This document shows, piece after piece, positions 163 to 20,700 of a stretch of DNA of 32,136 nt (position 1 is the stretch's first letter; the number at the start of each line of letters is the position of its first letter). This DNA is from an uncultured bacterium (GTDB lineage: Bacteria; Fidelibacterota; Marinisomatia; Marinisomatales; UBA1611). The translations under genes and the position numbers were made by a program. The notes below the pieces were generated by a model that worked only from the letters and a program-made list of their open reading frames with translations, made no database searches and had not been told where the DNA came from. The stretch lies in NCBI GenBank assembly GCA_905478065.1, contig CAJQGZ010000089.1:1-32136 (forward strand), read 5' to 3'.

Positions 163-651
163 ATGATGAATTCAACAAATAAAAATGGTTTTACTTTAAT
201 AGAATTAATAATGGTTATTATCATTATTGGTATTCTAGCAGCAGTTTCAATACCTAGGTTTGCTGTTGTCATTAGGCAGGGCGAAGCAGCATCTGAGCAA
301 GGTATTATAACACAAGTTGTCGAAGGTTTAGAAACATGGGCAATGGAAGAGTTTATGGATACAGGAATTAAATCTTGGCCTGAGAACCCTTTCAGCGTAC
401 TAACATCTATCTCTTTTGAATACGATAGTACCAATACTGACATGACTAGTTTGGTTGGTGGTGAATGGATTTTTACAGGCCAGACAGAAAGAACATTTGG
501 CAACATATCTTTAGCAAATGCAATTGTGCACAGGCGTGTTGAAGATAGTCTATCTGTTTGGATTTATGACCCCGCTAATGGTGCTATAAGTCATGGAGAT
601 TCACCCTATTTACCTTTCACTAAAATATTTAAAGGCGATTTAGCCCAATAA
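163..651 (+). CDS. Type IV pilin-like protein (array member P1, type B)
   Basis: 162-residue prepilin. The leader MMNSTNKNG ends in Gly and is followed by FTLIELIMV, with Glu at mature position 5 and a hydrophobic helix to about residue 30, the class III signal cut and N-methylated by prepilin peptidase. The soluble part carries SWPENPF (about 67-73), EWIFTG and a late HRRVEDSLSVWIYDP segment. It resembles the gene at 2794 most closely (same SWPENPF, WIFTG and V-W-x-Y-x-P segments). An AGGAGT ribosome site at 155-160 suits either ATG at 163 or 166. Role inferred: a major or alternative subunit of a pilus or pseudopilus fibre. Whether it is a T4P pilin or a GspG-like pseudopilin cannot be settled from sequence alone. 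Confidence 0.9.
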   Translation: MMNSTNKNGFTLIELIMVIIIIGILAAVSIPRFAVVIRQGEAASEQGIITQVVEGLETWAMEEFMDTGIKSWPENPFSVLTSISFEYDSTNTDMTSLVGGEWIFTGQTERTFGNISLANAIVHRRVEDSLSVWIYDPANGAISHGDSPYLPFTKIFKGDLAQ

Positions 652-676
652 ATAGAGTTTAAAAAGGAGTCTGATT

Positions 677-1141
677 ATGAAGAACAAGTATAATAAAGGT
701 TTTACACTGATCGAGTTAATCATTGTAATGGTTATTCTTGGAATCATGGCGGCCGTAGCGGTTCCAAGATACCTAGATAGTATTTCTAATGCAGAAGAAT
801 CTGCAGAAAATGCTGTAATAAGCAGCATAAAATCTGGCTTAAAGCAATATGCAAATAATAAGCTATATAGTGAAGGTAGAGCCATTTGGCCGACAAACCC
901 TTTTGATGCTCTTTCAGAGTTGCCAGTTGGGTATGATTCGAACGACAATGGAAACGAATCTGAGATAGGGCAACTTGATGGTGTTGCTGATCAGGATGGT
1001 GAGTGGACTTTCGATATGAATAACTCTAGAATAACGCATCAACGTGCTGATAATTCTAGATATTTTTGGAATTATGATAGAGGGGTTCAGGCTGGTGACA
1101 ATGCTAGTATTGGTTCTCTTGGAAACAGACAAGAATTATAA
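677..1141 (+). CDS. Type IV pilin-like protein (array member P2, type A)
   Basis: 154-residue prepilin with leader MKNKYNKG, then FTLIELIIVMVILGIMAAVA with Glu5. The soluble domain has IWPTNPFDAL (about 70-79), an Asp/Asn/Gly-rich stretch (YDSNDNGNESEIGQLDG) that could bind calcium as the GspG pseudopilin loop does, then EWTFD and ITHQRADNSRYFWNYD. The tail with GSLGNR pairs it with the truncated P0 and with P8. AAGGAG at 664-669 is a well-placed ribosome site and the gene lies 25 nt after P1. The calcium idea is an inference from the acidic loop only. Confidence 0.9.
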   Translation: MKNKYNKGFTLIELIIVMVILGIMAAVAVPRYLDSISNAEESAENAVISSIKSGLKQYANNKLYSEGRAIWPTNPFDALSELPVGYDSNDNGNESEIGQLDGVADQDGEWTFDMNNSRITHQRADNSRYFWNYDRGVQAGDNASIGSLGNRQEL

Positions 1142-1168
1142 TTAAAAACTACATAATAAGATTTAAAA

Positions 1169-1558
1169 ATGAAGAAAAATTTAAATAGTGGTTTTACACT
1201 AATAGAACTAGTAATAATCATGGTAATCTTAGGTGTTTTAGCTGCTGTAGCAGTTCCAAGGTTAGGGAATACAATTGATTCTTCTGAACAATCAGCTGAA
1301 GAAGCAGTCATTGGAAACCTAAGATCTGCTTTAGAAGTCTATGCAATGGACCAAGTTGTAAATAATTCAAACAAAAGTTATCCTGATAACCCATTTGAGG
1401 CACTTGACGATAAGAGCAAAAATGATTTATATAACAATAATTGGCAAATAGGCGGATTTGGTAATGACGGCATAAATCATGTCAGAAATGATGGATCGAG
1501 ATCATTCTGGAGCTATAACTCTGATAATGGCGAAATTCAGTTCGGATACACGCAATAA
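1169..1558 (+). CDS. Type IV pilin-like protein (array member P3, type C)
   Basis: 129-residue prepilin: leader MKKNLNSG, then FTLIELVIIMVILGVLAAVA with Glu5. The soluble part is short: helix to about residue 65 (LEVYAMDQVV), SYPDNPFEAL, then HVRNDGSRSFWSYNSDNGEI near the end. The first 40 residues are identical to those of the next gene, which starts on the last base of this stop codon (TAATG at 1556-1560), so the two are very likely translationally coupled. Upstream there is no strong Shine-Dalgarno motif. It belongs to the compact type C group (1169-2764), which lacks the longer C-terminal tail of type A. Confidence 0.9.
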   Translation: MKKNLNSGFTLIELVIIMVILGVLAAVAVPRLGNTIDSSEQSAEEAVIGNLRSALEVYAMDQVVNNSNKSYPDNPFEALDDKSKNDLYNNNWQIGGFGNDGINHVRNDGSRSFWSYNSDNGEIQFGYTQ

Positions 1559-1677
1559 TGAAGAAAAACTTAAACAGCGGTTTTACGCTAATAGAATTAG
1601 TAATTATCATGGTAATCTTAGGTGTCTTAGCTGCCGTAGCAGTTCCAAGGTTAGGGAATACAATTGATTCTTCTGAA
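1247..1677 (+). repeat. Duplicated 5' segment of pilins P3 and P4
   Basis: The 42 bases at 1247-1288 are identical to 1636-1677 (offset 389), and a further 22-base identical run follows six mismatched-codon bases later (1295-1316 and 1684-1705). Upstream, 1169-1246 and 1558-1635 encode the same residues but differ at several third positions. The identical core encodes the end of the N-terminal helix (VAVPRLGNTIDSSE). Confidence 0.85.
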
Positions 1678-1926
1678 GAAGCTGCTGAAGAAGCAGTCAT
1701 TGGAAGTCTCAGCTCAGCTATAGAAGTTTACGCAATGGATCAAGTAGTTTTAAACTCAGTAAAGAGTTACCCGTTAAACCCGTTTGATGCATTAGATACA
1801 AAAAGTAAAAATGATCTTCTATTTTCAAAAGGCTGGTGGTTTAGCAACGGGAATATTCGACATACTAGAAATGATGGCAGTGAATTAACCTGGGGATACA
1901 ATACATCAACTGGAGAGATTAATTGA
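1558..1926 (+). CDS. Type IV pilin-like protein (array member P4, type C)
   Basis: 122 residues, the shortest complete member. The leader and N-terminal helix are identical to P3 over residues 1-40. The soluble part then diverges: SYPLNPFDAL, GWWFSNGNIRHTRNDGSELT and WGYNTSTGEIN at the very end. The ATG overlaps the P3 stop by one base and no ribosome site is visible within the P3 3' end, so coupled translation is the likely route. Probable recent duplicate of P3 with divergence concentrated in the exposed domain. Function inferred as a fibre subunit. Confidence 0.9.
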   Translation: MKKNLNSGFTLIELVIIMVILGVLAAVAVPRLGNTIDSSEEAAEEAVIGSLSSAIEVYAMDQVVLNSVKSYPLNPFDALDTKSKNDLLFSKGWWFSNGNIRHTRNDGSELTWGYNTSTGEIN

Positions 1927-2327
1927 TGAAAAAATTGTTTAACGAAGGATTCACACTGATTGAATTAGTAATCATCATGGTAGTACTTGGAATTTTAGCA
2001 GCAGTTGCTGTCCCTAGAATGGGTAACACAATTGCATCGTCTGAAGAAGCTGCTGAAAATACGGTTTTAGCTTCTCTTCGAACTGCTGTTGAAGTCTATG
2101 CAATGGACCAAGTGGTCAAAAACTCAAATAAAAGCTATCCGTACAATCCTTTTGACGAGCTTGATAAATTGCCAGAAGGTTACACGAATGATGGCTACCT
2201 TGATGCAGATGGTGAATGGATATTTACATCTGATAATTACATTGCTCACCAAAGAAATGACAACACTCGGCACAAATGGTATTATGATGTAAGCACTGGT
2301 TTATTTGGAGCTAGAGTTGATTACTAA
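1926..2327 (+). CDS. Type IV pilin-like protein (array member P5, type C)
   Basis: Starts at ATG 1926, overlapping the P4 stop by one base (TGATG). A TTG in frame at 1923 would add one residue but is less likely. GGAG at 1911-1914 is a usable ribosome site. The 133-residue prepilin has leader MKKLFNEG, then FTLIELVIIMVVLGILAAVA with Glu5; SYPYNPFDEL; an acidic loop NDGYLDADGEW; and AHQRNDNTRHKWYYDVSTG. It shares EVYAMDQVV with P3 and P4, and part of the acidic loop with type A members, so it looks intermediate between the two groups. Confidence 0.9.
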   Translation: MKKLFNEGFTLIELVIIMVVLGILAAVAVPRMGNTIASSEEAAENTVLASLRTAVEVYAMDQVVKNSNKSYPYNPFDELDKLPEGYTNDGYLDADGEWIFTSDNYIAHQRNDNTRHKWYYDVSTGLFGARVDY

Positions 2328-2377
2328 ACTCGATAGAGATTTTTATGAATTTATTACAACAAAAAGAAAGTTTTAAA

Positions 2378-2764
2378 ATGGTCGCATCAAAAAAATTGCG
2401 TGAAGGTTTTACGCTAGTTGAGCTAATTATTGTAATGGTTATCCTAGGAATTATGGCAGCAGTCGCAGTACCAAAAATGGGTAACATTATATCTCAATCC
2501 GCTGAAGCTGCTGAAAATGCTATACTTGCCCAGCTAGAATCTGCTGCGGAGATCAAAGCATTGGACAATGTTTTATTAACAGGGTATAAAACATATCCTT
2601 CGAATCCTTTTAACGAGTTAGAGAAAACGCCATCAGGTTACACAAATGGTACTGATTCTGGTCAAGAAGATGCATGGTGGTTTTCAGCAGATAAAGTTTA
2701 TCATAGGAGAAATGGCACAAGTTATTTTTGGAGCTATAACTCTAGTAACGGGGAAATAAATTAA
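2378..2764 (+). CDS. Type IV pilin-like protein (array member P6, type C)
   Basis: Prepilin with FTLVELIIVMVILGIMAAVA and Glu5. I chose ATG 2378 because it gives a ten-residue leader (MVASKKLREG) like its neighbours. An in-frame ATG at 2345 would give a 21-residue leader, and neither start has a strong ribosome site. The soluble domain has TYPSNPFNEL, an Asn/Asp/Gly loop, AWWFSADKVYHRRNGTS and FWSYNSSNGEIN as the final residues, like P3 and P4. Fibre subunit by inference. Confidence 0.87.
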   Translation: MVASKKLREGFTLVELIIVMVILGIMAAVAVPKMGNIISQSAEAAENAILAQLESAAEIKALDNVLLTGYKTYPSNPFNELEKTPSGYTNGTDSGQEDAWWFSADKVYHRRNGTSYFWSYNSSNGEIN

Positions 2765-2793
2765 ATTTAACAAAATAAGAATGAGGCAATTAA

Positions 2794-3276
2794 ATGCAAC
2801 ATATGAAAAATAAAAACGGATTTACGATAATAGAGCTTATCATGGTCATGATCATAATCGGAGTTTTAGCGGCAGTCGCTATTCCACGGTTTCAAGATAT
2901 TGTAATTGAAAGTGAAGTTGCTGTAGAACAACGAATATTGAATACTATCTATGATGGTTTGGAGACCTATGCTCGTGAGCAATACATTGCGAACGGTGTT
3001 CGTTCCTGGCCAGAAAATCCATTCGTAGCACTATCTAAACTTCCACCAGATTATGATGCTGACCTTTTTGTACTATCTCAAATGAAAGATAGGGACTGGA
3101 TTTTTACAGGCGAAGGAAACAACCCTACCTACAACCTTGCAATAGCCCATTTAAGAAAATCTGATAGCATTGCGGTTTGGAAATACAATCCTAACGATGG
3201 AAAAATTGAACATAATGGCGCTCCATTTGGTCCTATCAACATCGTTCATAGAGTGAATGGTACTGGCGGTAATTAG
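2794..3276 (+). CDS. Type IV pilin-like protein (array member P7, type B)
   Basis: 160-residue prepilin: leader MQHMKNKNG, then FTIIELIMVMIIIGVLAAVA with Glu5. The soluble domain has SWPENPFVAL, DWIFTGEGN and IAHLRKSDSIAVWKYNP, the same order of segments as P1 (163-651). GAGG at 2783-2786 supports the start at 2794; an internal ATG at 2803 is possible. With the following gene it repeats the B-then-A order seen at P1-P2. Confidence 0.9.
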   Translation: MQHMKNKNGFTIIELIMVMIIIGVLAAVAIPRFQDIVIESEVAVEQRILNTIYDGLETYAREQYIANGVRSWPENPFVALSKLPPDYDADLFVLSQMKDRDWIFTGEGNNPTYNLAIAHLRKSDSIAVWKYNPNDGKIEHNGAPFGPINIVHRVNGTGGN

Positions 3277-3304
3277 AAATATTTATAAATAAGGAATTAT
3301 TATC

Positions 3305-3799
3305 ATGAAGAAAAATAATAAAAATGGTTTTACCTTAATTGAATTAATAATGGTTATGATCATCTTGGGTATTTTGTCTGCAGTGGCTATTCCAAGATAC
3401 TTAGAAACCATACAAAAATCTGAGATCACAGCAGAAGATGCTGTAATAGATAAACTCTGTGCTGCTCTTGAGAATTATGCTCAGCATAAAATGCTAACTA
3501 AAGGAAGACGATACTGGCCGGAAAACCCATTCGAAGCTTTAGAAACGTTACCTCAGACGTATACCACTGACGGTAACGACAGCGATACTGATAATGAGTG
3601 GACATTTGTAAATTGGTATTCTGGCGATGAAAATTCTGGAGGCGTTTCTGGAAGGATTACGCATCAGAGAGCTGACAACACAAGATGGCAGTGGTCTTAC
3701 AATGCGGGTATTAATCACGGAACAGACAAAGATGTAACCGGTACTCTTTATATTAGAACCGAGCTTGGTACAGCGGGGTCTGAAGTACGTTTTCAATAA
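3305..3799 (+). CDS. Type IV pilin-like protein (array member P8, type A)
   Basis: 164-residue prepilin and last member of the array: leader MKKNNKNG, then FTLIELIMVMIILGILSAVA with Glu5. The soluble domain has YWPENPFEAL, an acidic loop TTDGNDSDTDNEW, and GRITHQRADNTRWQWSY, close to P0 and P2. AAGGA at 3291-3295 is the ribosome site. A strong hairpin followed by T-rich sequence lies 35 nt downstream, so the major array transcript can end here. Confidence 0.9.
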   Translation: MKKNNKNGFTLIELIMVMIILGILSAVAIPRYLETIQKSEITAEDAVIDKLCAALENYAQHKMLTKGRRYWPENPFEALETLPQTYTTDGNDSDTDNEWTFVNWYSGDENSGGVSGRITHQRADNTRWQWSYNAGINHGTDKDVTGTLYIRTELGTAGSEVRFQ

Positions 3800-3834
3800 T
3801 AAATAAAAATTCAATTTTATTGATATTATCATTT

Positions 3835-3872
3835 AAGGCTTCGTTAATAATAGCGAAGCCTTTGTAATTTTT
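3835..3872 (+). terminator. Rho-independent-type terminator after the pilin array
   Basis: Perfect 9-bp inverted repeat, AAGGCTTCG at 3835-3843 and CGAAGCCTT at 3854-3862, with a 10-nt AT-rich loop. It is followed by TGTAATTTTT, a broken T tract. It lies between the last major pilin-like gene and the first minor pilin-like gene, so it probably ends or attenuates the array transcript. Read-through would supply less message for the downstream minor pilins. Confidence 0.75.
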
Positions 3873-3879
3873 GGAGTAA

Positions 3880-4350
3880 ATGTTGTTTAAAAAATTAAAA
3901 TCAAATTCTGGCGTTACTATGATAGAACTCGTGATTGTATTAGCGATCATGGGTATCCTTGCAGTTACCGTTGTTCCTATGTTCAGTCAACTTCAACATA
4001 AATCACAAGTCAGTAGAAATTTATCAAATATGAAAATTATTCAAGAAGCATTTTTAAACCATTACTATACCACGTATGCAATCGGCGCGCCTCAAGTCCC
4101 TCCTCCCCCTGTCGATAGTTTAATGACAGATGTTTGGTGTAATACGCCAATGGACTCTTCAATTAATTTTAAAACGCCAAATGAACTATTTGGTACAGGT
4201 GAAATACCAAAGAACTCAAATCATGTTCCTTTTGTTTATCGCAGTTGGATTGATACAGAAATTGATGGCAGACAAAAAAGAAAGATTCTGATTAAGGATA
4301 GTGACGCAGACAGTCCATCCTATGGTGAATTTCTTTTATTTACAATCTAA
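3880..4350 (+). CDS. Prepilin-like protein, first of the minor pilin group
   Basis: 156 residues. Leader MLFKKLKSNSG, then VTMIELVIVLAIMGILAVTV: the residue after the cut is Val instead of the usual Phe, but Glu5 and the hydrophobic helix are present. The soluble part has FSQLQHKSQVSRNLSNMKII, a Pro-rich turn (PQVPPPPVDS) and a C-terminal beta-rich region. It lacks the WP.NPF and R.D..W.Y signatures of the upstream array. GGAG at 3873-3876 is the ribosome site, directly after the hairpin. Likely a minor pilin or pseudopilin; its exact equivalent (GspG, GspH or an MSHA minor pilin) is not clear. Confidence 0.82.
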   Translation: MLFKKLKSNSGVTMIELVIVLAIMGILAVTVVPMFSQLQHKSQVSRNLSNMKIIQEAFLNHYYTTYAIGAPQVPPPPVDSLMTDVWCNTPMDSSINFKTPNELFGTGEIPKNSNHVPFVYRSWIDTEIDGRQKRKILIKDSDADSPSYGEFLLFTI

Positions 4351-4390: not shown

Positions 4391-4888
4391 ATGAAAATAA
4401 TAAAACACACAAAACAATCTTCATTATTATCCTCAAAAGGTTTTTCTTTAATTGAACTAGTTATAGTTATGATAATTCTAGGTATCATCATAGCAGCTTC
4501 TTCATCTAGGTTACGCGACATCACAGTTAATGTTAGAATTAACTCTGCTGCCAATCAAATAACTTCAGATATTGACCAAGCAAAAAGCATGTCTATGGGT
4601 CGTAGAAAACAAATAAAATTTGTATTTAATCAAAATAATGAGACATATACTATTTATGAAGAAAATAATTTATTTACTGATTACCCAGGAAGCCTTAATG
4701 GTGTAGTTAGCCTGTCCGAAACCAATAATTCTGGTGTAGACATTACTTCCGTGAATTTAAATGGTACAAATATTTTAACTTTTGATAAATGGGGAACATG
4801 TCTCCAAGGAGGGACAATTATACTAAATCAATATAAAGAAATTCATGTGAAAAAAATCACGGGTTTTTGGGAAATAAAAAATTTATGA
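4391..4888 (+). CDS. GspH/FimT-like minor prepilin
   Basis: 165 residues. A 17-residue leader ends KG, then FSLIELVIVMIILGIIIAAS with Glu5. The following SAANQITSDIDQAKSMSMGRRKQIKFVF is the typical GspH/FimT pattern (helix, then a basic segment leading into beta strands with a Gly-rich DKWGTCLQGGTI turn). GspH-type proteins form part of the tip-initiating complex of pseudopili. The AGGGT just before the ATG is too close to be a good ribosome site. Its 3' end overlaps the next gene by 4 nt (ATGA), indicating coupled translation. Placement as GspH-like is from pattern recognition, moderately sure. Confidence 0.82.
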   Translation: MKIIKHTKQSSLLSSKGFSLIELVIVMIILGIIIAASSSRLRDITVNVRINSAANQITSDIDQAKSMSMGRRKQIKFVFNQNNETYTIYEENNLFTDYPGSLNGVVSLSETNNSGVDITSVNLNGTNILTFDKWGTCLQGGTIILNQYKEIHVKKITGFWEIKNL

Positions 4889-5295
4889 TTATCAAAAAAA
4901 CTATTTCCGGTTTTGCTTTGGTAGAAATTGTAGTTGTCGCTCTGCTTCTCGGCGGTGCTTTTATTGTTTTTATCGAGGCTCTAAACCATACTAAAAAAAT
5001 GCAAGTTAAATCTGAAGTAAAAACAATTCAGACCGTTCTTTTAAATAGTAAAATAAACCAAATCCGCAATACTCAATTCATTGCTATTGCTTCTATAAAT
5101 AACTTTTTAGAATTTGAAAGCAACCCTGGTTATTTTTATAAAGTTAGTGTAAAGCACACTGATCAAACCTTTACAACAATATACGATAATATGACAACAG
5201 ATTTTAAATTAATCACTATAGAAATCAGACATGGACCAGCTCAAGAGGTGGCTCCAATCTTGAGCGATACTTTTGTTGTCAGTAATATTATTTAG
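4885..5295 (+). CDS. GspI/PilV-like minor prepilin
   Basis: Started at ATG 4885, which overlaps the previous stop as ATGA. A TTG at 4867 would extend it by six residues but is less convincing. The 136-residue product has leader MIIKKTISG, then FALVEIVVVALLLGGAFIVF with Glu5, and a small soluble domain. Size, position between an H-like and a J-like gene, and a leader with FALVE point to the GspI/PilV/MshD class that joins the minor pilin tip complex. No further motif allows a firmer name. Confidence 0.78.
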   Translation: MIIKKTISGFALVEIVVVALLLGGAFIVFIEALNHTKKMQVKSEVKTIQTVLLNSKINQIRNTQFIAIASINNFLEFESNPGYFYKVSVKHTDQTFTTIYDNMTTDFKLITIEIRHGPAQEVAPILSDTFVVSNII

Positions 5296-5309
5296 ATAGT
5301 GAAGGATGA

Positions 5310-5885
5310 ATGAATAATAACAAACATATTAAAATCACATCAAAAGGCTTTACTCTTATTGAATTAATTATCACAGTGGTTGCAATCGGTATATTCGGAG
5401 GGATTACTGCAAATATCTTAGCAAATGCTTCAAAAATATATTCAGAGACTTTAAAAAAACAAAAATTTGTCTCTGAGGCAAGATCATCTTTTTTTCAACT
5501 AAATAGGAATCTAAGTTTGCAAACGTGGCCTACTAATGACAATATTATAAATTCAAAAACAATTGATATCAAAAGTGCAAATAATACTCGATTACAATAT
5601 AGTTTTTTAAGTAATAGTGAGCTTCGTTTTAGTATTTATCAACATCCTAATTTAGAGCCTACTTCACAAACCTTATCCACAATTACAGACTTTAATTCGT
5701 CAAACATTTTCTATTATGATGCTCAAAATAATTTCATTATTGATGACTTGTACTCTGATAATATTACTTTAAACAAAATAAATATTTTATTTAATAGTTC
5801 AGGTGATGGATATCTAATGAATTTTGAAAGTTATATTTCTCCTTATAATTATCAGTTTGGGAAACCAATGGACTATCATGAGTAA
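5310..5885 (+). CDS. GspJ/PilW-like minor prepilin
   Basis: 191 residues. The leader ends SKG, then FTLIELIITVVAIGIFGGIT with Glu5, followed by a helix (SETLKKQKFVSEARSSFFQLNRNLS) and a beta-rich domain. This layout (conserved R in the post-helix segment, about 190 residues) is that of the GspJ/PilW/MshO family. AAGGA at 5302-5306 sits close to the start. Its last codons overlap the start of the next gene by 8 nt. Name by position and architecture, not by a diagnostic motif. Confidence 0.78.
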   Translation: MNNNKHIKITSKGFTLIELIITVVAIGIFGGITANILANASKIYSETLKKQKFVSEARSSFFQLNRNLSLQTWPTNDNIINSKTIDIKSANNTRLQYSFLSNSELRFSIYQHPNLEPTSQTLSTITDFNSSNIFYYDAQNNFIIDDLYSDNITLNKINILFNSSGDGYLMNFESYISPYNYQFGKPMDYHE

Positions 5886-8331
5886 GGTGAAAACTATTTC
5901 TTTTAATACTCTAAAAAAAACAAGTGATGGTGTCATCTTAATTTCTATGTCTTTAGGTATTTTCGTGATTATAAGTATTTTTACATTCTTTCTAATGAAG
6001 CTAGTTGTAAAAGAAAACAATATGTCTTTATATCATGCTTTAGATATTAAAACAAGAAATCTTGCACATTCTGCTATGGGTCGAGGAATTTTTCAATTTG
6101 GAAATTTAAGAAATATTACTTCACAAACTGGTAATCTCAATAATGGTAACTATGCTATTTCATACGATGGGGTAGCTGATGAGATAGGAGATCCTCTACC
6201 CTATTCTCATTATACGATGCTGAAATCTGATGCTGAAATCAGTGATTCCCAAAGAAAAACCAGAATATTTCTTTCTTCGTTTCCAAGCGGATTCAATCCA
6301 GCATTTTATGGTGAAAACATATCCGACCAATCTTTTGATGGTGGTATTATAAATGGCGGTCACCTTATAAAAAAGAATGGAAACTTTTTCCATAATGGTA
6401 CTCAGATAAATATGGAAGGTATAAAAGAAGGTATGCCTCAATTTAATAACATGTATGATGATGAAATCATTTGGACTCAAAATAATGTAGAAATCAATTC
6501 GTCGAACCCAGGAAATAACCCAAATAATAAGTTTTTAAATTTTGATGGGAACGACTACGTAAAAGTGATCTATTCAAATACCACAACCACAACCACTTAT
6601 GAGACTACAACCACAACCATACCAGGAACAACAACAAATTACACAGCTACTTTTGAGGGTAGAAGCGGCTCTTTAGGTGGAAGTGGTTACATGGGTATGA
6701 ATTGGCATGGAAGACTCTACGTATTAAATGGTTCTGGGTATGGTAACTCTGGATATCAAACAGCGGTAACTTCAGGAACTCAAGTTGCCTATAATGCTTG
6801 GAATGAGCAAAATGTTTATTTTGAATCAAGTAATGGTTCAGAATTTGATTTCCGAGATTTTTATTGTGCATCTGCATGGTATAATAGCCAAACTCTTTAC
6901 GTAAGAGGCTATAAAAATGGTTCTCAAAAATATAATAAATCGTTCACTATTTATAAAACGACTAGACAAAAATTAACCTGTGATTTTTATGATGTAGATA
7001 AAATTATTTTTTCGAACAGCGGTAACCATGTAGCATTTGATAACTTCCGCTGGACAAAAACTAGCCCGTCGACAACGACAACGACGACGACTCCTGTTAC
7101 GACGAGTACAACAACGACCACTCTACCAAAATTTAATGAGAATAGAACATTTGTCGCATGGGTCAAACCTTCTGATGATCACAATACTGGTGGTGGAATC
7201 TTAACTTCTGGAACAGGCGATTGCACAGGGAAAATGTTCGCCATTGGAAGAAGCGGAGGAAAGTTGTTTTTTTGGGGAGGATGCAAAGACTGGGCCTCAA
7301 ATCTAACCATTCCGAAAGATCAATGGTCATTTATTGCTGTGACATATAATGGAAGTAAAGTTCGAGCATTTGTTAATGGCGTTTGGGAAGAAACGACACT
7401 GAATGGATTTAATACTCAAATAAGTGAACTTTTTATCGGTGGAGAAACGACGAATAATGGATCTTCTTTTAGAAACTATTTTCGGGGGGGGATAGATGAA
7501 GTGGCTGTTTGGAATAAGGCTTTAGCAAATTCTGAAATATTAGCTTTGTATAATAATGGAGCAGGATTAGACGCATCTTCAAATTCAGGAGATTACATTT
7601 CGGAAAATAATTTAAGAGGCTATTGGAAATTCAATGATGGTGCTGGCTCATCCCTATCTGATAATAGTGGAAATGGGAAAAATGGGACAAACTATGGAGC
7701 AACATGGAATACTGGAAGTCATACACAATCACAAATTGGTCCTCTAGTTTTTAATTCTGGCACTCAGTTAAACCTCAATTCTCCAAATTGTGGATCTGAC
7801 CATACATCTATTTGCGTGAATAATAAAATTGCAGTAAACCAAAATATAATTTTTAATGATACAGATATATCAGGTTCTGGAATTATAGTGGCGACTGGGA
7901 AAATAACTATAAATCAAAACAGCACAGTTGGTGGAGGCGTTACTTTCATTGCAAATGATATTGAAATCATTGATGTTTCAATGGGAGAGCCATCTTTATT
8001 TAATAGTTCTAGCGGTCCTGTAATTATATATATCGAAAATGGAGGTCTAATATCTAATTCAAATAATATATCAGGTCTTATAATAAATAATGATTCAAAT
8101 AACTCTGGTACCCTTACAATAAATAATTCAAGTATTAATGGAGCAATATTGAATTATAGTTCTAATTTCATACTAAGTAACAATACAAGTATCGTAGGTT
8201 CTATCGTTTCTAACTATCTTGTTGCAATGGATAATAGCTCAAGCATAACAAAAGGAAATCTTCCTTCATTTTATGGAAAGAACATTGGATTAAATAGTTC
8301 CGTAATCCCAGGAAGCTACCTAGAATACTAA
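5878..8331 (+). CDS. GspK/PilX-position prepilin-like protein with split LamG lectin domain
   Basis: 817 residues from ATG 5878, which overlaps the previous gene by 8 nt; an in-frame ATG at 5824 would lie deep inside that gene. A basic N-terminus is followed by DG then VILISMSLG and a membrane helix (about 19-42). Glu5 is absent, as in GspK. Residues 218-234 (FLNFDGNDYVKV) look like the first strand of a LamG/concanavalin A-like jelly roll, but the next LamG strand (RTFVAWVKP) begins only near residue 422. Between them lie two Thr-rich linkers (about 235-253 and 399-416) flanking an independent beta-sandwich. LamG continues to about 610 (DQWSFIAVTYNGSKVRAFVNG; YFRGGIDEVAVWNKAL; GYWKFNDG). Residues 630-817 are an Asn/Ser-rich, beta-helix-like repeat region. 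It probably caps the fibre tip and may bind glycans. MshQ of MSHA loci is recalled to carry a similar lectin-like domain. Confidence 0.82.
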   Translation: MSKVKTISFNTLKKTSDGVILISMSLGIFVIISIFTFFLMKLVVKENNMSLYHALDIKTRNLAHSAMGRGIFQFGNLRNITSQTGNLNNGNYAISYDGVADEIGDPLPYSHYTMLKSDAEISDSQRKTRIFLSSFPSGFNPAFYGENISDQSFDGGIINGGHLIKKNGNFFHNGTQINMEGIKEGMPQFNNMYDDEIIWTQNNVEINSSNPGNNPNNKFLNFDGNDYVKVIYSNTTTTTTYETTTTTIPGTTTNYTATFEGRSGSLGGSGYMGMNWHGRLYVLNGSGYGNSGYQTAVTSGTQVAYNAWNEQNVYFESSNGSEFDFRDFYCASAWYNSQTLYVRGYKNGSQKYNKSFTIYKTTRQKLTCDFYDVDKIIFSNSGNHVAFDNFRWTKTSPSTTTTTTTPVTTSTTTTTLPKFNENRTFVAWVKPSDDHNTGGGILTSGTGDCTGKMFAIGRSGGKLFFWGGCKDWASNLTIPKDQWSFIAVTYNGSKVRAFVNGVWEETTLNGFNTQISELFIGGETTNNGSSFRNYFRGGIDEVAVWNKALANSEILALYNNGAGLDASSNSGDYISENNLRGYWKFNDGAGSSLSDNSGNGKNGTNYGATWNTGSHTQSQIGPLVFNSGTQLNLNSPNCGSDHTSICVNNKIAVNQNIIFNDTDISGSGIIVATGKITINQNSTVGGGVTFIANDIEIIDVSMGEPSLFNSSSGPVIIYIENGGLISNSNNISGLIINNDSNNSGTLTINNSSINGAILNYSSNFILSNNTSIVGSIVSNYLVAMDNSSSITKGNLPSFYGKNIGLNSSVIPGSYLEY
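6580..6636 (+). repeat. Threonine-rich linker 1 (low-complexity)
   Basis: Encodes TTTTTTYETTTTTIPGTTT, 14 threonines written only with ACA, ACC and ACT (no ACG). It sits at the boundary where the LamG-type fold is interrupted. Such linkers are often extended, exposed and glycosylated; no direct evidence for that here. Confidence 0.8.
6637..7062 (+). other. Inserted beta-sandwich domain within the LamG-bearing protein
   Basis: About 142 residues (253-394 of the 817-residue product) rich in aromatic and Gly residues: ATFEGRSGSLGGSGYMGMNW, RLYVLNGSGYGNSGYQTAV, SGTQVAYNAWN, EFDFRDFYCASAWYN, LYVRGYKNGSQKY, and a final HVAFDNFRW strand. This order resembles a domain recalled from small exported proteins (GLNW..fyVLdg..GY..g..SG..vAyN...) that end in a D-N-[LF] strand. 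It is bounded on both sides by Thr-rich linkers, as expected of an independently folding insert. Family assignment is from memory and unverified. Confidence 0.6.
7072..7125 (+). repeat. Threonine-rich linker 2 (low-complexity)
   Basis: Encodes TTTTTTTPVTTSTTTTTLP, again 14 threonines, but seven of them use ACG, a codon absent from linker 1. It ends just before the resumption of the LamG strand RTFVAWVKP. Confidence 0.8.
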
Positions 8332-8340
8332 GGAGTAATT

Positions 8341-8703
8341 ATGACATACATTAAACTTATCATACCTTTAATCATTATAAACATAGTCTCAGCACAATCC
8401 CCTACAGTTAGAGTTGAAGGTAGTCATACTCTTACACAAGGTAATGGAGTTGGTATTTATGAAGCTGTAGACCTTTGTTTAAAGCAGGCAATAATAAATG
8501 GTGTTTTTGACTATTTAAATACAAAACATAATTTTGAAGACGACCAAAGAGAAACCCTTCTAAAAAAATTAGACCCAATAATAGAAATGTGTGTAACGGA
8601 GCCTTCAATTATGAATCAATTAATAGATGGTAATACAATTTCTATTCAAGCTCAAGGGCAAGTTGATCCGATGATATTAAACTCAATTCTTGGCTTAGAA
8701 TAA
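8341..8703 (+). CDS. Small exported protein, FlgT-N/LPP20-like
   Basis: 120 residues with an N-terminal hydrophobic signal (MTYIKLIIPLIIINIVSAQ, likely cleaved after SAQ). The mature part VRVEGSHTL...GVGIYEAVDLCLKQAIINGVFDYL is the beta-strand plus helix pattern seen in the FlgT N-terminal and LPP20-type fold, which are periplasmic or outer-membrane associated. Two Cys (CLKQA and MCVTEP) could pair. AGGAG at 8331-8335 overlaps the upstream stop, so it is co-transcribed with the minor pilins. A periplasmic accessory role in pilus assembly is plausible, but I do not recognise a named family member. Confidence 0.75.
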   Translation: MTYIKLIIPLIIINIVSAQSPTVRVEGSHTLTQGNGVGIYEAVDLCLKQAIINGVFDYLNTKHNFEDDQRETLLKKLDPIIEMCVTEPSIMNQLIDGNTISIQAQGQVDPMILNSILGLE

Positions 8704-8786
8704 TATTTATTTTTATGGAAATTGCTATGAGGTATAAAATACTATTATAGCTAACTTAAATTGAAAAATTTTAACTAAATTATTTT
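8704..8786. other. 83-nt AT-rich intergenic spacer
   Basis: The only spacer of note between the minor pilin genes and the following membrane-protein gene. It contains TTGCTA and TATAAAAT-like stretches that could serve as promoter elements, but spacing is not convincing and no perfect hairpin is visible. I make no promoter call. Confidence 0.3.
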
Positions 8787-9194
8787 ATGATATACATACT
8801 TAGCATTGGAAGTATTTCAGTTTTTTTTGGGTTCCTACTTTTAGCTGCCCCAAATACTATTTTATCTATCGAAAGAAGAGCTAATAAGATATACATGACA
8901 GATCCAACTTTCATGCAGTATCGAGTGCCGTTTGGGGTCGGTCTTTTTGCTGCCTCTATATTTATTATTTATTCTTTAATTAATGAATCTACAGAATACT
9001 TGATAATCATTGGAGTCTTAGCCCTAATTTTCAGCTTGATGTTGTTGCTAACTCCAAAAGCAATATTTTCTCTAGAAAGGCAAGCTAATAGGGTCTATAT
9101 GACAGACCCAACATTTATGAAATATCGTGTGCCTTTTGGTATCTTTTTGCTTTTATCTGGAGCTTTCATGATATATTCAAGCATTGGTTATTTT
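8787..9194 (+). repeat. Internal tandem duplication (2 x 204 nt)
   Basis: Codons 1-68 (8787-8990) and 69-136 (8991-9194) encode homologous units of exactly equal length. The shared YMTDPTFM loop is encoded with different synonymous codons in the two copies, so the duplication is old and held by selection on protein. Confidence 0.8.
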
Positions 9195-9197
9195 TAA
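8787..9197 (+). CDS. Four-helix membrane protein made of two 68-residue repeats
   Basis: 136 residues, strongly hydrophobic, with about four membrane spans (roughly 1-21, 46-64, 70-88, 114-132). Residues 17-64 and 85-132 align without gaps at a period of 68 (about 29 of 48 identical). Both copies hold an E-R-x-A-N segment then YMTDPTFM and YRVPFG between helices. The two conserved loops should face the same side of the membrane. I do not recognise the family. No clear ribosome site precedes the ATG. It lies between the minor pilins and the ATPase fusion, 21 nt before the latter, which suggests but does not prove a role in the same system. Confidence 0.8.
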   Translation: MIYILSIGSISVFFGFLLLAAPNTILSIERRANKIYMTDPTFMQYRVPFGVGLFAASIFIIYSLINESTEYLIIIGVLALIFSLMLLLTPKAIFSLERQANRVYMTDPTFMKYRVPFGIFLLLSGAFMIYSSIGYF

Positions 9198-9218: not shown

Positions 9219-12098
9219 TTGGAATTATTTGAATCAATTGGTCTTAAAGCCGATCCATTTACAACCTCCCCAAACCCTGATTTATTTTTTCCTGCAAAAG
9301 AGCATAAACAATGTCTCGAAGGCCTTGAGCTCGCAATTAGAATGCGCAGAGGATTATCCGTCGTTAGAGGAGGTATCGGAACTGGAAAGACGACAATAAG
9401 TAGAAAACTAATCCAAAACTTCTCATCAGATGAAGATGTCAAATTTGAATTTTATCCAGTTCTAGATCCAAAATTTGAATCTGAACTAGTTCTTTTACAA
9501 CATCTAGTAGACTTATTCGGAATTGAAGAGGATGCCGGCTCAGCTGTAATCGAATGTAGGAATCAAATTGAACACCATCTAATCAAGGCAGGCGTAGAAG
9601 ATGGTCGAGTACTAGTCCTGGTAATCGACGAAGGTCAAAATTTAAAAGGTGAATTTTTAGATGTTTTCAGAACATTATTAAATTTTGAAACAGATGATTT
9701 CAAACTGCTTCAATTAGTGATTTTTGGCCAACCTGAAATGACTTCTATCATTCATGAGTATCCAAATTTTGAAGACAGAATTACATTTAATTTTGAACTT
9801 GGTCCACTTGATTTTGAATCTGTGGAAGGTATAATAAAACATCGATTAACTGAAAAAGGTGGTGGTGGCCGTGAGTATTTCACTACCGATGCTATTCGTG
9901 CGATACATAATCAAACCCAAGGCTATCCAAGAAAGATTAATAAGTTATGCCATCAGCTGCTGCTAAATATGATGAGTGAGAAAGCTGAGATGGTATCCCT
10001 CGGAATTGTTGAAAATACAATTGGTGGAAAAGTGCCTGATGGACTTATAGATCAAGAAGAGCCTGAAGAAGTAGTAGCCATAAAAGAGGAAAAAGAAGAA
10101 GAGCCTGAAGAAAAGAAAGATGTTGCCGCAAATAAACTCTTTGATATTTTAAGAAAGAGCGGGAAAAAAGATAGCGGTAGCGGTAAAATTGGAGAATCAG
10201 TATCTGAAGACGATATCATTGGCGATCTATATGGCGAAACTGATGAAGATGATGAAGATGACGAATTAGAAGAGGAAATCGTTGAAGAAGAAGAAGAAAG
10301 CAAATGGTTCCAACGGCGTAAACAAAGATTAAAAAAGAACATTGGTGCTTATCCTGCAAACATAAATCCTCCTGCTCTTAAGAAAGAAAAATTGCTTTTA
10401 GGCATTGCAATGGATCAAGGACATATATACTCAGCATTAGTGCAAGATAAAGGCGGTATTAAATCACTCATTGGGGCTGATATTTTTTCTGCAACTAAAG
10501 CAAAGTTAGATCCAAAAAGAAACCCAACCGGGTTTTCTGTTGCTTTAGGAAAAGCGTATGAACAATTAACAACAAAGCTTGAAAAAAAAGGAAGTAAAGT
10601 TCCGCGAAGTATTACTAAAAAACTTCATGCCGGAGTACCGATAGCTTTTACAATTAACAATACTTCAAGCTTATTAAAAACTGTTCTTGTCCCTCAAGAA
10701 AATAAAAAAGAGCGGAAGATGATTATTGAGTATGATGCGAAAAAAAATCTTCCTTTCAATTCAGATGATATTATTTTTGACTCGGTTGAATTAGAGCAGG
10801 GCAAAAATATCATTGGTGTTGCAAATGCCGAATACATAGATGCCCCCGCACAAACTTTATCAGAAAAAAAGTGGGATGTTCGCTTTTGGCCTCCTGCAGC
10901 TCAAACCGTTTTAAATTCATTTCGCTGGAACTACCCTGGGAAAAAACACGATATCGTTTTAATTTTTCATATTGGAGAAATTGAAAGTTTTTTACTAGGT
11001 TATAATCAAGGGTACCCAGACGCAATCGTTCCACTAGACCTTGGTATTCAGAACCTTACAGATGCATGGAAATATCGTTCTACCGCATCTAAAGCAAAAT
11101 GGGATAAAAGAGATTACTGTAGAGTCCCTCCGTCAATTTTAAAATCTGAAATAAAAGATAATTCTACAAATAAACAGAAAAAACCGCAAGACGATGCAAT
11201 GCGTCCTGTAATTGAAGGTTGGGATCAAGAGCTTGAAAGAGCGTTAAATAGCATGGCGCAATCTTTTCCTGTTGATAACATTTCTGAAATTTTCTTAAGT
11301 GGCTGCGCAGAAGAAGTGTTGTTTCTTGATGAGTACCTGCACAATCAATTAGACGTAACCGTCGAATATTTGGACCCTTTTAAAAATATAGCATTTTTTC
11401 CTGATGAAGAAGAGAGAGAAAATTTTGATTTTTCAAAAACAGCTCTTACCACTGCTGTTGGGGCCGCTCTTAATCTTGATAAATCTATAAGTCTTCTACC
11501 AGATATGTTTAAAGAGTCTGAAAAATTTAGACTGGGTAATAAGTTTAGTATTCCTGCAGCTGCGGCAATTTTCTTTGGAGTTATTTCTTTATCGGGTTGG
11601 ACATCAGTAAACCATGATGATATGCGCTCGAAGCTCAATTCGATGAGATCTCAAGCTTCAAGTATTGCTCCAATAAAAAATAAATATGAAAAAGTTTCCT
11701 CTGAAAAGAATACTATTGTGAAACAGCTCGATGTACTTCTAAAAGAATCGAAACTTTCCAATTTATCTATTAGTGTCATGCGATTTTTTAGCTACAATAC
11801 GCCAAAAGAAATAACATTAGATATGATTTCTTTTCAACGCGGCTGGGAACGTGGAGACTGGATCCATGTTGGGAATTCGCTTGAAAAAGTAATTACCATT
11901 GTTGATGAAAATAAAGATTTTGCAAAAGTTGCTGGGGCAATCACCGCTAACCCGGCATTAAAAGAAAGATACTTTTCAAACTTCATTACTCAAGTTGAGA
12001 ATTCTGGTCTTTTTAAAAAAATTGATGTCATTAATAAAAAAACTACAAGCGGTATGGATATTGACAATATGACATTTGAACTAAAGTGTGAATTATAA
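9219..12098 (+). CDS. Fusion of ExeA/MshM-type AAA ATPase, PilM and PilN
   Basis: 959 residues from TTG 9219. The frame is closed by TAA at 9195-9197, no in-frame ATG precedes the conserved FESIGLKADPF start, and AAGGG at 9202-9206 is a possible ribosome site. Residues 1-270: AAA ATPase like GspA/ExeA/MshM, with Walker A GGIGTGKTT at 51-59 and Walker B VLVLVIDE at 131-138. Residues about 277-365: very acidic, low-complexity linker. Residues about 390-750: PilM-like actin-fold domain (GIAMDQGHIYSALV; VPQENKKERKMIIEYDAKKN; IFLSGCAEEVLFLDEYL; late VGAALNLD). Residues 757-761, ISLLP, match the INLLP motif at the PilN N-terminus. A membrane helix follows (about 777-797), then a coiled coil and a PilN-like periplasmic domain. 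GspL is a natural PilM-PilN fusion; adding the ATPase is the unusual part. It should couple cytoplasmic ATPase and PilM to the PilO/PilP inner-membrane complex. Confidence 0.88.
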   Translation: MELFESIGLKADPFTTSPNPDLFFPAKEHKQCLEGLELAIRMRRGLSVVRGGIGTGKTTISRKLIQNFSSDEDVKFEFYPVLDPKFESELVLLQHLVDLFGIEEDAGSAVIECRNQIEHHLIKAGVEDGRVLVLVIDEGQNLKGEFLDVFRTLLNFETDDFKLLQLVIFGQPEMTSIIHEYPNFEDRITFNFELGPLDFESVEGIIKHRLTEKGGGGREYFTTDAIRAIHNQTQGYPRKINKLCHQLLLNMMSEKAEMVSLGIVENTIGGKVPDGLIDQEEPEEVVAIKEEKEEEPEEKKDVAANKLFDILRKSGKKDSGSGKIGESVSEDDIIGDLYGETDEDDEDDELEEEIVEEEEESKWFQRRKQRLKKNIGAYPANINPPALKKEKLLLGIAMDQGHIYSALVQDKGGIKSLIGADIFSATKAKLDPKRNPTGFSVALGKAYEQLTTKLEKKGSKVPRSITKKLHAGVPIAFTINNTSSLLKTVLVPQENKKERKMIIEYDAKKNLPFNSDDIIFDSVELEQGKNIIGVANAEYIDAPAQTLSEKKWDVRFWPPAAQTVLNSFRWNYPGKKHDIVLIFHIGEIESFLLGYNQGYPDAIVPLDLGIQNLTDAWKYRSTASKAKWDKRDYCRVPPSILKSEIKDNSTNKQKKPQDDAMRPVIEGWDQELERALNSMAQSFPVDNISEIFLSGCAEEVLFLDEYLHNQLDVTVEYLDPFKNIAFFPDEEERENFDFSKTALTTAVGAALNLDKSISLLPDMFKESEKFRLGNKFSIPAAAAIFFGVISLSGWTSVNHDDMRSKLNSMRSQASSIAPIKNKYEKVSSEKNTIVKQLDVLLKESKLSNLSISVMRFFSYNTPKEITLDMISFQRGWERGDWIHVGNSLEKVITIVDENKDFAKVAGAITANPALKERYFSNFITQVENSGLFKKIDVINKKTTSGMDIDNMTFELKCEL

Positions 12099-17776: not shown

Positions 17777-17780
17777 GTCT

Positions 17781-20700
17781 ATGTTCCTAAATAGAAATTT
17801 TTTCTTTAAAATATCTTTTTTAATCCTTCTCGTTCAAAGAGCAGTTTTTAGTGAAGAGGTATTCGAGATAGATGCTGACCGTAGCTCCATATTACAAAAT
17901 ATAATATCCTCAGATATTGGTATTGCAGATTTAAATAATGATGGTGTTAATGACATTATACTTTCTGGTTATAATAAAATTGGAAATCAAGAAGGGTTAT
18001 TTTTAAATACCTACAGTATTTCATCTACAGGTGTAATCGACACACTTCAGATGAACCTACTTAGTAATTATTTTACTTACATCCCTGAAAACCATTCATC
18101 AAAATATATAGGCGGGGATGGTGGATTATCACTTGGCGATTATGATAGAGATGGACTAATTGATGTATTAATCCATGGCGCTGAGTTTATGCTTTTGACA
18201 CGAAACTTAGGTGGTAACCTATCTACAAATAATTATATGCCTGGTGACTTTAGTGAAAGTTTAGGCGAGAGCTCTTTGCAATGGGGCGATGTTGATAATG
18301 ATGGAGATCTTGATCTTTTTTGGATGGGATTAAAAAATGGAAGAACAACAATAACAAATAAGCTTCTTCTTAATCAAATAGATTTTGAAGGGAATACAAA
18401 TTGGGCGTTTGATAATTCGATTGTAATGCCTGACCTACGTAATGGGGCACTTGCTTGGGAAGATATAGATTTAGATGGAGATCTTGATCTGCTTACAAGT
18501 GGGCAACAACTTACTGTTGAATCTGGCGTAACTAAATTATACCTAAATGACCCCCTAGGAAGATTAGGCGAAGATACAAATCAAGAAATTGCAGCATTAA
18601 AAGGAACAGCAATTTGTTTTTCAGATTTAGACAATGACACAGATTCAGATTTAATTATTTCTGGTTATAGTCCTATAGATTCTTCATTAAAGACATTGAT
18701 ATATATTAATGAACCCACGGGAAACTTTAGACTAGCTGATGAACAAATTAATTTTGGAACCATATTTGGTTCTATTAAAGCAATCGATATTAACATGGAT
18801 GGATTTAAAGATATTGCGATAAGTGGAGCTGTTCAACATAGTATTAATTATGATAGTATATATCTAATTGACACACTTCAAATGAGTGAACAAGGCGATG
18901 TTTTAGAAGCAGATACTACGGTACTTTTGCTTAACCCGAGAGATAGTGTTTGGGCATTAGAAGGAAAAATATTTTTAAATAGTGGTAATGGTGAACTTGA
19001 ATTCAATGATATTCAAACAATTGAAGGTGCTCGAACTATCTCCTTTGTTGATGTTAACCAAGATAAAAAACCGGATATTATTGCTTCTGGAACTACTGAG
19101 GTTGGAGATAGTGATAGCTCTTTTGTATCGGTTCTGTTAAATGTTTCGGTTGGTTCAAATAATAAGCCAACACCCCCAACAATTTTAGAGTCATTCGCAA
19201 TTAGTAATAGAGCTATTTTTAATTGGGGTGCTGGCAGTGATGACATCGCACCTGCCCAGACTCTCCACTATAACCTTTCGATCGCAAGAGTATTAGATGG
19301 AAATGAAACCAAGGCACTAATTCCAGAGATTGTTGCTTATAATAATTCTAACGTCGGGACTAGACTCATAAGGGAGTTTACCAATATCCCATGGGGTAAT
19401 TACAATTGGAAGGTTCAAACTATTGATCCATCAGGTGTTATTTCTGATTGGTCTGAAGAAAAAGAACTATTCATACCTCGATTAGTAAAATCCTTTCAAT
19501 CTATTCCTGGTTACTCTTATGGTATTTCTAGGTGGAGCGATATTAATGATGATGAACTTTTAGATTTAGCCATAACAGGGAACCTTTATACAGGGTCGAG
19601 TAAAACACAAATATATTTAAATGATGATGGAATTTTAAATGTTGATAACCTCCAGCCTCGCATGGCAAATGTCTATGGCGGTCACCTAAGCTTTGTTGAT
19701 TATAACAATGATGGGTTTTTGGATATCTCCATGACAGGGATTGCCACAATAAACTTTTCAACATTTACAGCTCTTCTGCTATATAAATATGAAAACGGAA
19801 ACTTCATGTTAGATGAGCAAGAGAATCAGCTATCTGCTTCCAGCGGGTATTGGGGCGGTCAATACAACCACGATTGGGGTGACTATGATAATGATGGAGA
19901 CCTCGATTTAGTTAGTGGAGGTATAAGTATTTTTGACAATACTAATTATCTAAACGTATTTAACAATTCAAATGGACTATTATCAATTGATACAACACAA
20001 ACTGATTTGGTGCCCTTATTCCCCTCCGCAGTTGTGTGGATTGATATAAATCGTGACAATCATTTAGACTTGTTGGCTTTGGGACGGCTAGGCTCTGACG
20101 GCATTTCGCACATGTATATTAATGATAGCACAGGAAATTTAACGCTATCATCAGAACAACCATTTTCAATTCCCTCTACATTGCATGCTATTTCTGTAGG
20201 AGATTATAATAATGATAGCTTTGATGATATCGCCGTCGCACACCTTGATGGTTCAAATATGCATACAAACATTTATACTAACGAGAATGGAACAAGATTC
20301 ACGCTTCAACAAGAGCTCGAAGGAGCAACCTATTCAAGCTTAGACTGGGGTGACTATGACAATGATGGCGATCTTGACTTAGTAAGCAGTGGGTATACCG
20401 GAACATTAATTACTGACTTAGGGCAAACAGAGTATATCAATCCTATAACAAACATTTATCAACAAAATGAAAATGGCCAATTTATATTAGACTCTTCATT
20501 ATATATGCTAGACAGCGTCGGCCTCTCTTCTACCCAATGGGGTGACTATGATAATGATGGAGATCTCGACTTATTAGTAACTGGAGAGACAGAAGAAAAA
20601 GAGCTTATTACTAGAGTCTATGAAAATTTAGAAGGCTTTACAAACCCTAACAATAAACCCACAAAACCAATAATGCTTTTAAGTGACGTAAATATAGATT

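Follow-up and report, generated by a model that had tools for sequence, protein, structure and literature searches.

A candidate type IV pilus tip pilin with a nested beta domain in its LamG fold, within a variable minor-pilin block of a marine bacterium

Overview

The 32,136 nucleotides of contig CAJQGZ010000089.1 (GenBank assembly GCA_905478065.1; hereafter the window) carry type IV pilus genes, among which the gene at 5878-8331 encodes an 817-residue pilin-like protein, referred to here as the tip protein, whose LamG domain is interrupted by a second beta domain held between two threonine-rich linkers. The reading that we favour, with good confidence, is that of a pilus tip pilin at the GspK/PilX position that bears this nested LamG domain and belongs to a tip block exchanged between relatives. 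The source genome (2.13 Mb in 146 contigs, 82% complete) likely comes from a marine Candidatus Neomarinimicrobiota bacterium, judging from its relatives: a genome scan that may leave out the source genome itself gave 18 loci, and the named genomes among them belong to Candidatus Neomarinimicrobiota or to unclassified marine bacteria. Comparison genomes, labelled G with their loci labelled L, are drafts and mostly metagenome-assembled genomes (MAGs).

A LamG domain interrupted in its first loop

An earlier note, made from the letters of the window, had proposed that the first LamG strand, FDGNDYVKV, is parted from its continuation, RTFVAWVKP, by about 180 residues. The open reading frame (ORF) translation and the orthologues bear out the separation, the length of which is 192 residues. 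The strand FDGNDYVKV (aa 240-248, 6541-6567, like all genes and features below on the forward strand) is followed by a first linker with 14 Thr in 23 residues (6568-6636), a beta domain of about 139 residues (aa 272-410, 6637-7053) and a second linker with 16 Thr in 30 residues (7054-7143), both linkers being as rich in threonine as had been claimed. LamG then resumes, as proposed, at RTFVAWVKP (aa 441-449, 7144-7170) and completes by 7740. The Pfam family PF13385 (LamG_3) is matched at aa 425-572 (E 2.9e-18, 66.9 bits against a cut-off of 27.6), hence starting only after the insert, and is matched unbroken over positions 1-151 in the insert-less orthologue L063. Since the LamG-fold matches of the structural model extend to about aa 630-639, the end originally placed at 7710 (aa 629) is reasonable.

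Insert-less forms are the rule. A profile of the N-terminal region, searched against 33 genomes of the family, recovered the tip protein in 19, of which 13 have an uninterrupted LamG domain (including G012, whose gene is truncated by a contig end), two have LamG with the insert (the window and G003) and four carry other passengers. Another copy with the insert, the third, is on contig NHBL01000053 of TMED6 (G173). The nested architecture is thus found in three separate MAGs (the window genome, MED-G177 and TMED6) and is not an assembly artefact. At the insertion point, insert-less orthologues have a loop of 11-15 residues (11 of 12 loci parsed by script; the twelfth, L060, was mis-split by the script and has 11 residues by eye). 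Untrimmed MAFFT alignments placed the LamG strands of orthologues on the insert; in the trimmed version, alignment A15 (14 rows, without orthologue L064, which has an ambiguous residue), both LamG halves are in register, the insert is gapped in all 11 insert-less rows, and a FDGSNDY strand directly precedes the loop. On the TMED6 contig (L054 and L056), the flanking genes fit the genus of the window, with the start of PilM 100% identical over 102 aa; the TMED6 genome is placed in another family, and the contig is either mis-binned or transferred.

Two AlphaFold models were made. The first, built from 3 sequences, was poor (mean pLDDT 48.9), and the second (mfe124d89d4ca), built from 14 sequences with the LamG halves in register, reached a mean pLDDT of 69.3 and a pTM of 0.42. 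The best structural matches of the second model are LamG, pentraxin and related sandwiches with Z-scores of 15-22, and they span the insert: the aligned ranges, of 155-206 residues, start at model residues 41-59 (the first strand, strand A, being 57-65) and mostly end near 447-456. Among them are 4dqa (Z 22.1, root-mean-square deviation (rmsd) 2.8, 203 residues aligned), serum amyloid P 1sac (Z 19.0, rmsd 2.6, 188 aligned, chain residues 5-204 of 204 against model residues 51-451) and agrin G3 1pz7 (Z 15.2, model residues 51-449). Single-domain targets such as 1sac and 1pz7 are therefore covered by residues from both sides of the insert; the 1sac match takes in the complete LamG sandwich, including the first strand. 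The first model agrees more weakly, with Z-scores of about 7-9 and many ranges starting at residues 20-29. Strand A likely pairs with the LamG sheet, as suggested by these ranges and the orthologue alignment rather than by hydrogen bonds, since the search output gives first and last aligned residues only.

It could be argued that the protein contains two ordinary domains in tandem, that the resemblance of FDGNDYVKV to a LamG strand is fortuitous and that LamG starts after the second linker, as does the Pfam match at aa 425. We consider this highly improbable: orthologues have their FDGSNDY strand right before the loop and the structural matches take in that strand, and on alignment A15 and the structural matches we reject a non-nested arrangement. 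Neither of the outcomes that would have spoken against nesting, an unpaired first strand or an insert present in all homologues, was seen. Together, the alignment and the model indicate a LamG domain (ConA/pentraxin-like) with a linker/beta-domain/linker unit inserted in its first interstrand loop, which is predicted to close still as one fold, with two flexible tethers holding the insert.

For the insert itself, the models give a partial picture of the fold, with strands present in both. In the second model, the second half of the insert has a pLDDT of about 75-90. The structure-search listings gave no separate fold match for the insert, but LamG matches filled them, so that a new fold should not be read into this result.

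A probable tip position in the pilus

The ORF spans 5824-8331 (835 codons from a TTG), and the in-frame ATG at 5878 is the likelier start, judging from its overlap with the end of the upstream gene. From its N-terminus, the protein comprises a signal with a hydrophobic helix, a conserved pilin-like region, LamG with its insert and a solenoid-like C-terminus. The pilin moiety (5878-6330; orthologue alignment A4) starts with a type III-like signal, SDG/VILISMSLGIF with the slash at the cleavage site. Gly-1 is present in 15 of 15 tip-protein orthologues and Glu5 in none of the 15, all of which have Ser or Ala at that position, whereas Glu5 is found in 12 of 12 pilins upstream; the tip protein is the only one of the 13 pilin-like proteins of the window to lack it. 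GspK and PilX are not known to carry Glu5. The C-terminal region (7741-8328, ending in PGSYLEY) is conserved in alignment A6 and modelled as beta-solenoid-like strands with a pLDDT mostly of about 80-92; in the relative L069 it has a match to DUF7305 below the cut-off.

Gene order points the same way. The tip gene follows nine pilin genes and then three minor pilins, which are a GspH/FimU-like pilin (4391-4888; PF12019, E 2.5e-4, 22.0 bits against a cut-off of 21, and N_methyl), a pilin in the GspI/PilV position (4867-5295), recognized by gene order and its N-terminal motif GFALVE as it has no significant Pfam match, and a pilin in the GspJ/PilW position (5310-5885; GFTLIE, N_methyl at its cut-off). 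It therefore stands fourth in the H-I-J-K order, and genes for an ExeA-like ATPase-PilM fusion, PilO and the secretin lie downstream. GspK has been proposed to sit at the pilus tip together with GspI and GspJ, in the passage cited (PMC8179133). The suggestion that the protein sits at the tip of a pilus-like fibre is thus supported by gene order and by the loss of Glu5, and we infer a GspK/PilX tip position in a type IV pilus.

A probably exchanged minor-pilin block

The tip gene lies within a 4.4-kb block (4405-8778) that differs wholesale between the window and relatives whose flanking genes are nearly identical, as seen in protein and DNA comparisons and in trees. The block contains the three minor pilins, the tip protein and one small gene, and is 34-47% identical to its counterparts in G001 and G002, the nearest flanking genes of which are 91-100% identical to those of the window. 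In G001 and G002, respectively, identity is 46.9 and 44.3% for GspH, 37.3 and 41.2% for the I/V pilin and 33.9 and 36.0% for the J/W pilin. Tip proteins are alignable only at their ends, with 43 and 38% at the N-terminus and 39% at the C-terminus in G002. The small gene that ends the block (8341-8703, 120 aa, no Pfam match) has no match in G001 or G002, and its protein is 43-47% identical in G003, G173 and G005. No PilY1/ComC adhesin gene is among the five genes of the block.

On the left, the flanking pilin (3880-4350) is 100% identical in G001 and 98.1% in G002, and identity of the pilins further upstream is 76-97% for G001 and 98-100% for the two reached by the G002 contig. On the right, the small protein at 8787-9197 is 94.9% identical in G002 (only its last 26 residues are seen in G001), the ATPase-PilM fusion (9219-12098) is 98.2 and 97.5% identical in G001 and G002, and PilO 94.9 and 93.7%. 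At the DNA level, similarity to G002 breaks off at 4405 and picks up again at 8778, with the two flanks on a single contig.

The passengers carried by the tip protein differ as well. In G001 (L042) it is a tandem glycine-rich ALK/LTK-like module (PF12810, 25.5 bits against a cut-off of 24.5), in G002 (L069) a Reelin-like sandwich below cut-off, and in G008 and G018 (L071 and L073) a Cys-rich module; in L071, the one of the two that was scanned, Pfam gave no match for the passenger. The solenoid-like C-terminus is common to the passenger variants with complete genes. Conversely, G003, G173 and G005 (as far as the G005 contigs go) have the cassette type of the window at 61-78% identity, with flanks less similar to those of the window than are the flanks of G001 and G002. 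Tree distances between the window and G001 are 1.44 for the cassette versus 0.034 for the flanks, about a 42-fold rise; for the window and G173 they are 0.41 versus 0.16, the rise being 2-3-fold for both G003 and G173. The flank tree groups the window, G001 and G002 with support of 100/100. When rooted on G017, the cassette rejects this group (p-AU 0.0063).

Very fast evolution in place, or artefacts of MAGs, could in principle account for the divergence of the G001 and G002 blocks instead of allele exchange. All the genomes are drafts, and in G001 the tip gene is cut short by the end of its contig. Nevertheless, the pilin, the block and the start of PilM are on one contig in G002, the edges of the block coincide with gene edges, and the rise in distance is far steeper toward G001 than toward G003 or G173. 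We regard this explanation as quite unlikely, and the block was probably swapped by homologous recombination in its flanks.

Several observations weigh against the combined reading of a nested tip pilin in an exchanged block. Neither N_methyl nor PilX_N (PF14341) of Pfam matches the tip protein, and PilX_N reaches only E 0.046, below the cut-off, in the relative L071, so that the protein is placed as working like PilX/GspK and not as a certified member. In the second model, the first half of the insert has a pLDDT of about 34-57 and no assigned known fold. The grouping submitted to the topology test was chosen after the identities had been seen, and the unrooted version of the test, which also favours divergence in place, does not reject it (p-AU 0.319). 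Five genome pairs drawn from four other genera, whose genomes are further apart, showed no comparable block; in one of these pairs (g2), the tip protein is 46% identical versus 53-73% around it. Finally, synonymous divergence (dS) reaches saturation (infinite values) in 10 of the 15 comparisons, which makes diversifying selection and relaxed constraint inseparable as sources of the rapid change of the insert described below.

Origin and divergence of the insert

Among the three insert-bearing orthologues, the insert is 36-40% identical and the linkers 58-75%, and the N-terminal, LamG (both parts) and C-terminal segments are 62-80% identical. The nonsynonymous distance (dN) is 0.68-0.74 in the insert versus 0.12-0.28 elsewhere; the insert evolves at about 2.5-6 times the rate of the remaining protein. 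The linkers stand out too: the densest 20-residue stretch in 20 other proteins of the window has 7 Thr, and six consecutive Thr codons are found nowhere in the window's genome but in the two linkers (3 overlapping forward matches, none in reverse). In G001, poly-Thr matches mostly correspond to a Gln run in another frame. On contig C61 of that MAG (L076 and L100), an ORF with Gln/Pro runs adjoins a ribonucleotide-reductase-like ORF, presumably viral by its look, and this DNA is possibly foreign to G001.

A profile of the insert, searched against 171 genomes of the class, matched 3, each time in the tip protein. With the single sequence, six of 245 genomes of the phylum were matched at E <= 0.01, namely the three insert carriers, G080, G222 and G160. 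The G080 match (locus L025, same phylum; E 4.3e-9, 28-29% identity) is to proteins that end in a PEP-CTERM signal, with PF07589 in the one scanned with Pfam and TIGR02595 above cut-off in all three scanned. The other two are probably chance matches (G222, E 3.5e-5, where the matched protein does not resemble a PEP-CTERM protein; G160, E 0.0066). Outside the tip protein, likely relatives of the insert were thus seen only in PEP-CTERM proteins, and it appears to be a guest module that comes with Thr linkers of its own. The proteins of L025 share the alignable beta domain but differ from the tip protein in that their domain stands alone with a PEP-CTERM signal at the end; no such sorting signal was found in the window tip protein with Pfam or NCBIfam. 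For the insert itself, searches of Pfam, PHROGs, NCBIfam and PDB sequences gave no known family with a score over threshold. An origin in a mobile element, prophage or plasmid was considered and rejected, as the insert gave no match in plasmids, in phages or, with three queries, in viral contigs, and so was a paralogous donor in the same genome, where the sole match is the insert itself. A LamG query against viral contigs likewise gave no match.

The insert may be a passive, weakly constrained decoration (a spacer, a shield or a glycosylated decoy), with LamG alone binding. Its flexible tethers, its low identity and the relaxed constraint that dS saturation permits would fit, but it is kept in 3 of 3 complete alleles of the cassette type without stop or frame break, and its core aromatic and glycine positions are conserved. 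This makes a passive insert rather unlikely in our view, and a second recognition head the better candidate.

Predicted function and known systems

We propose that the pilin helix and the partner minor pilins would prime and cap the pilus filament. The tip protein would hold LamG out past the solenoid-like region, and the Thr tethers would carry a second head. LamG would bind a glycan, by analogy with PilC of Streptococcus sanguinis, and the faster-evolving inserted domain could act as a second recognition head. The two-headed adhesin that had been suggested is consistent with these features. Exchange of the block would change the tip and its partner minor pilins together, as for the comC cassette of Acinetobacter baumannii in the passage cited (PMC10374093), and through recombination in the flanks binding specificity may be swapped as a unit. 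As a possible and tentative generalization, ocean Neomarinimicrobiota would have a swappable tip cassette. In its GspK/PilX-type tip pilin the pilin start and the solenoid end would be constant, and the passenger slot (LamG, LamG with a nested beta head, glycine-rich, Reelin-like or Cys-rich) would be exchanged with the partner minor pilins between near-identical genomes. In one cassette type the nested head would itself be the recognition surface that diversifies, under pressure from pilus-using phages or changing surfaces.

Close precedents exist in other bacteria, and are compared here as far as the cited passages go. In S. sanguinis, PilC is a minor pilin with a ConA-like lectin module that binds glycans, modelled at the pilus tip (PMC9934059). 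It resembles the tip protein in joining a minor pilin to a ConA-superfamily lectin module, but it belongs to another phylum and has an Ig-like module followed by the lectin module at its C-terminus, whereas in the tip protein another domain interrupts LamG and a solenoid-like region comes after it. In A. baumannii, the recombination block at comC/fimU/pilV covers minor pilins and the tip adhesin but not the flanks, and the ComC/PilY1-type adhesin has a finger inserted in its VWA domain (PMC10374093). The window shares with it a divergent block of minor pilins and tip gene between conserved flanks and an insertion inside a domain that is adhesive in A. baumannii and putatively so here; it differs in that the tip pilin itself bears whole alternative passengers and a nested domain. 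A survey of modular pilins lists 264 architectures, some with PF13385, and requires the N-terminal motif IPR012902 (PMC8179133). Like those pilins, the tip protein carries grafted domains that are not specific to pili (LamG and the insert), but it has no IPR012902/N_methyl match in Pfam, and nested passengers are not described in the cited parts of the survey. Among the papers listed by our literature searches, none dealt with LamG-bearing pilins of Marinimicrobia or with the nesting of a domain in a pilin LamG.

ComZ of Thermus thermophilus, a GspK-like pilin with an inserted beta-solenoid, binds DNA (PMC6561018), and the tip protein could likewise be a DNA-uptake receptor, with a LamG domain and an insert that serve a structural role or hold extracellular DNA and not glycans or cells. 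Both are large pilins in a GspK-like position that have gained domains, with a beta-solenoid in ComZ and a solenoid-like region in the tip protein, and the solenoid-like C-terminus persists across the passenger variants with complete genes. LamG is not described for ComZ in the cited part of that report, and ComZ is not among the matches listed for the second model. Against such a role, passengers that vary between LamG, glycine-rich, Reelin-like and Cys-rich modules are more typical of ligand adhesion, and the ConA-like lectin pilin of S. sanguinis binds glycans (PMC9934059). We judge a DNA-uptake role unlikely and favour an adhesin.

Exchange of tips between close relatives would let bacteria alter what they stick to. 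The same protein with and without the insert offers a clean natural experiment on a lectin-type domain that tolerates a whole domain in a loop. More broadly, these results suggest that pilus tips are modular and exchangeable in a marine phylum that is uncultured and about whose attachment little has been described. Should the tip set what the cell, or a phage that uses the pilus, recognizes, metagenomes could be read for niche and phage susceptibility with the variable block as a direct genetic marker.

Neighbouring genes

The nine consecutive pilin genes at 163-4350, all with Glu5 and several paralogous to each other, precede the minor pilins; N_methyl is matched in 8 of the 9, and the ninth (1923-2327) is recognized by its GFTLIE motif. 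The small protein at 8787-9197 has two similar halves (RRANKIYMTDPTFMQYRVPFG and RQANRVYMTDPTFMKYRVPFG) and is very conserved in the genus. The adjacent gene (9219-12098) encodes a 959-aa fusion of PilM to an ExeA-like AAA ATPase related to the XrtA/PEP-CTERM-associated ATPase. Finally, the region 14873-22052, beside the pilus genes, encodes a CHASE2-guanylate cyclase protein and, after it, a protein of 1437 aa with FG-GAP repeats.

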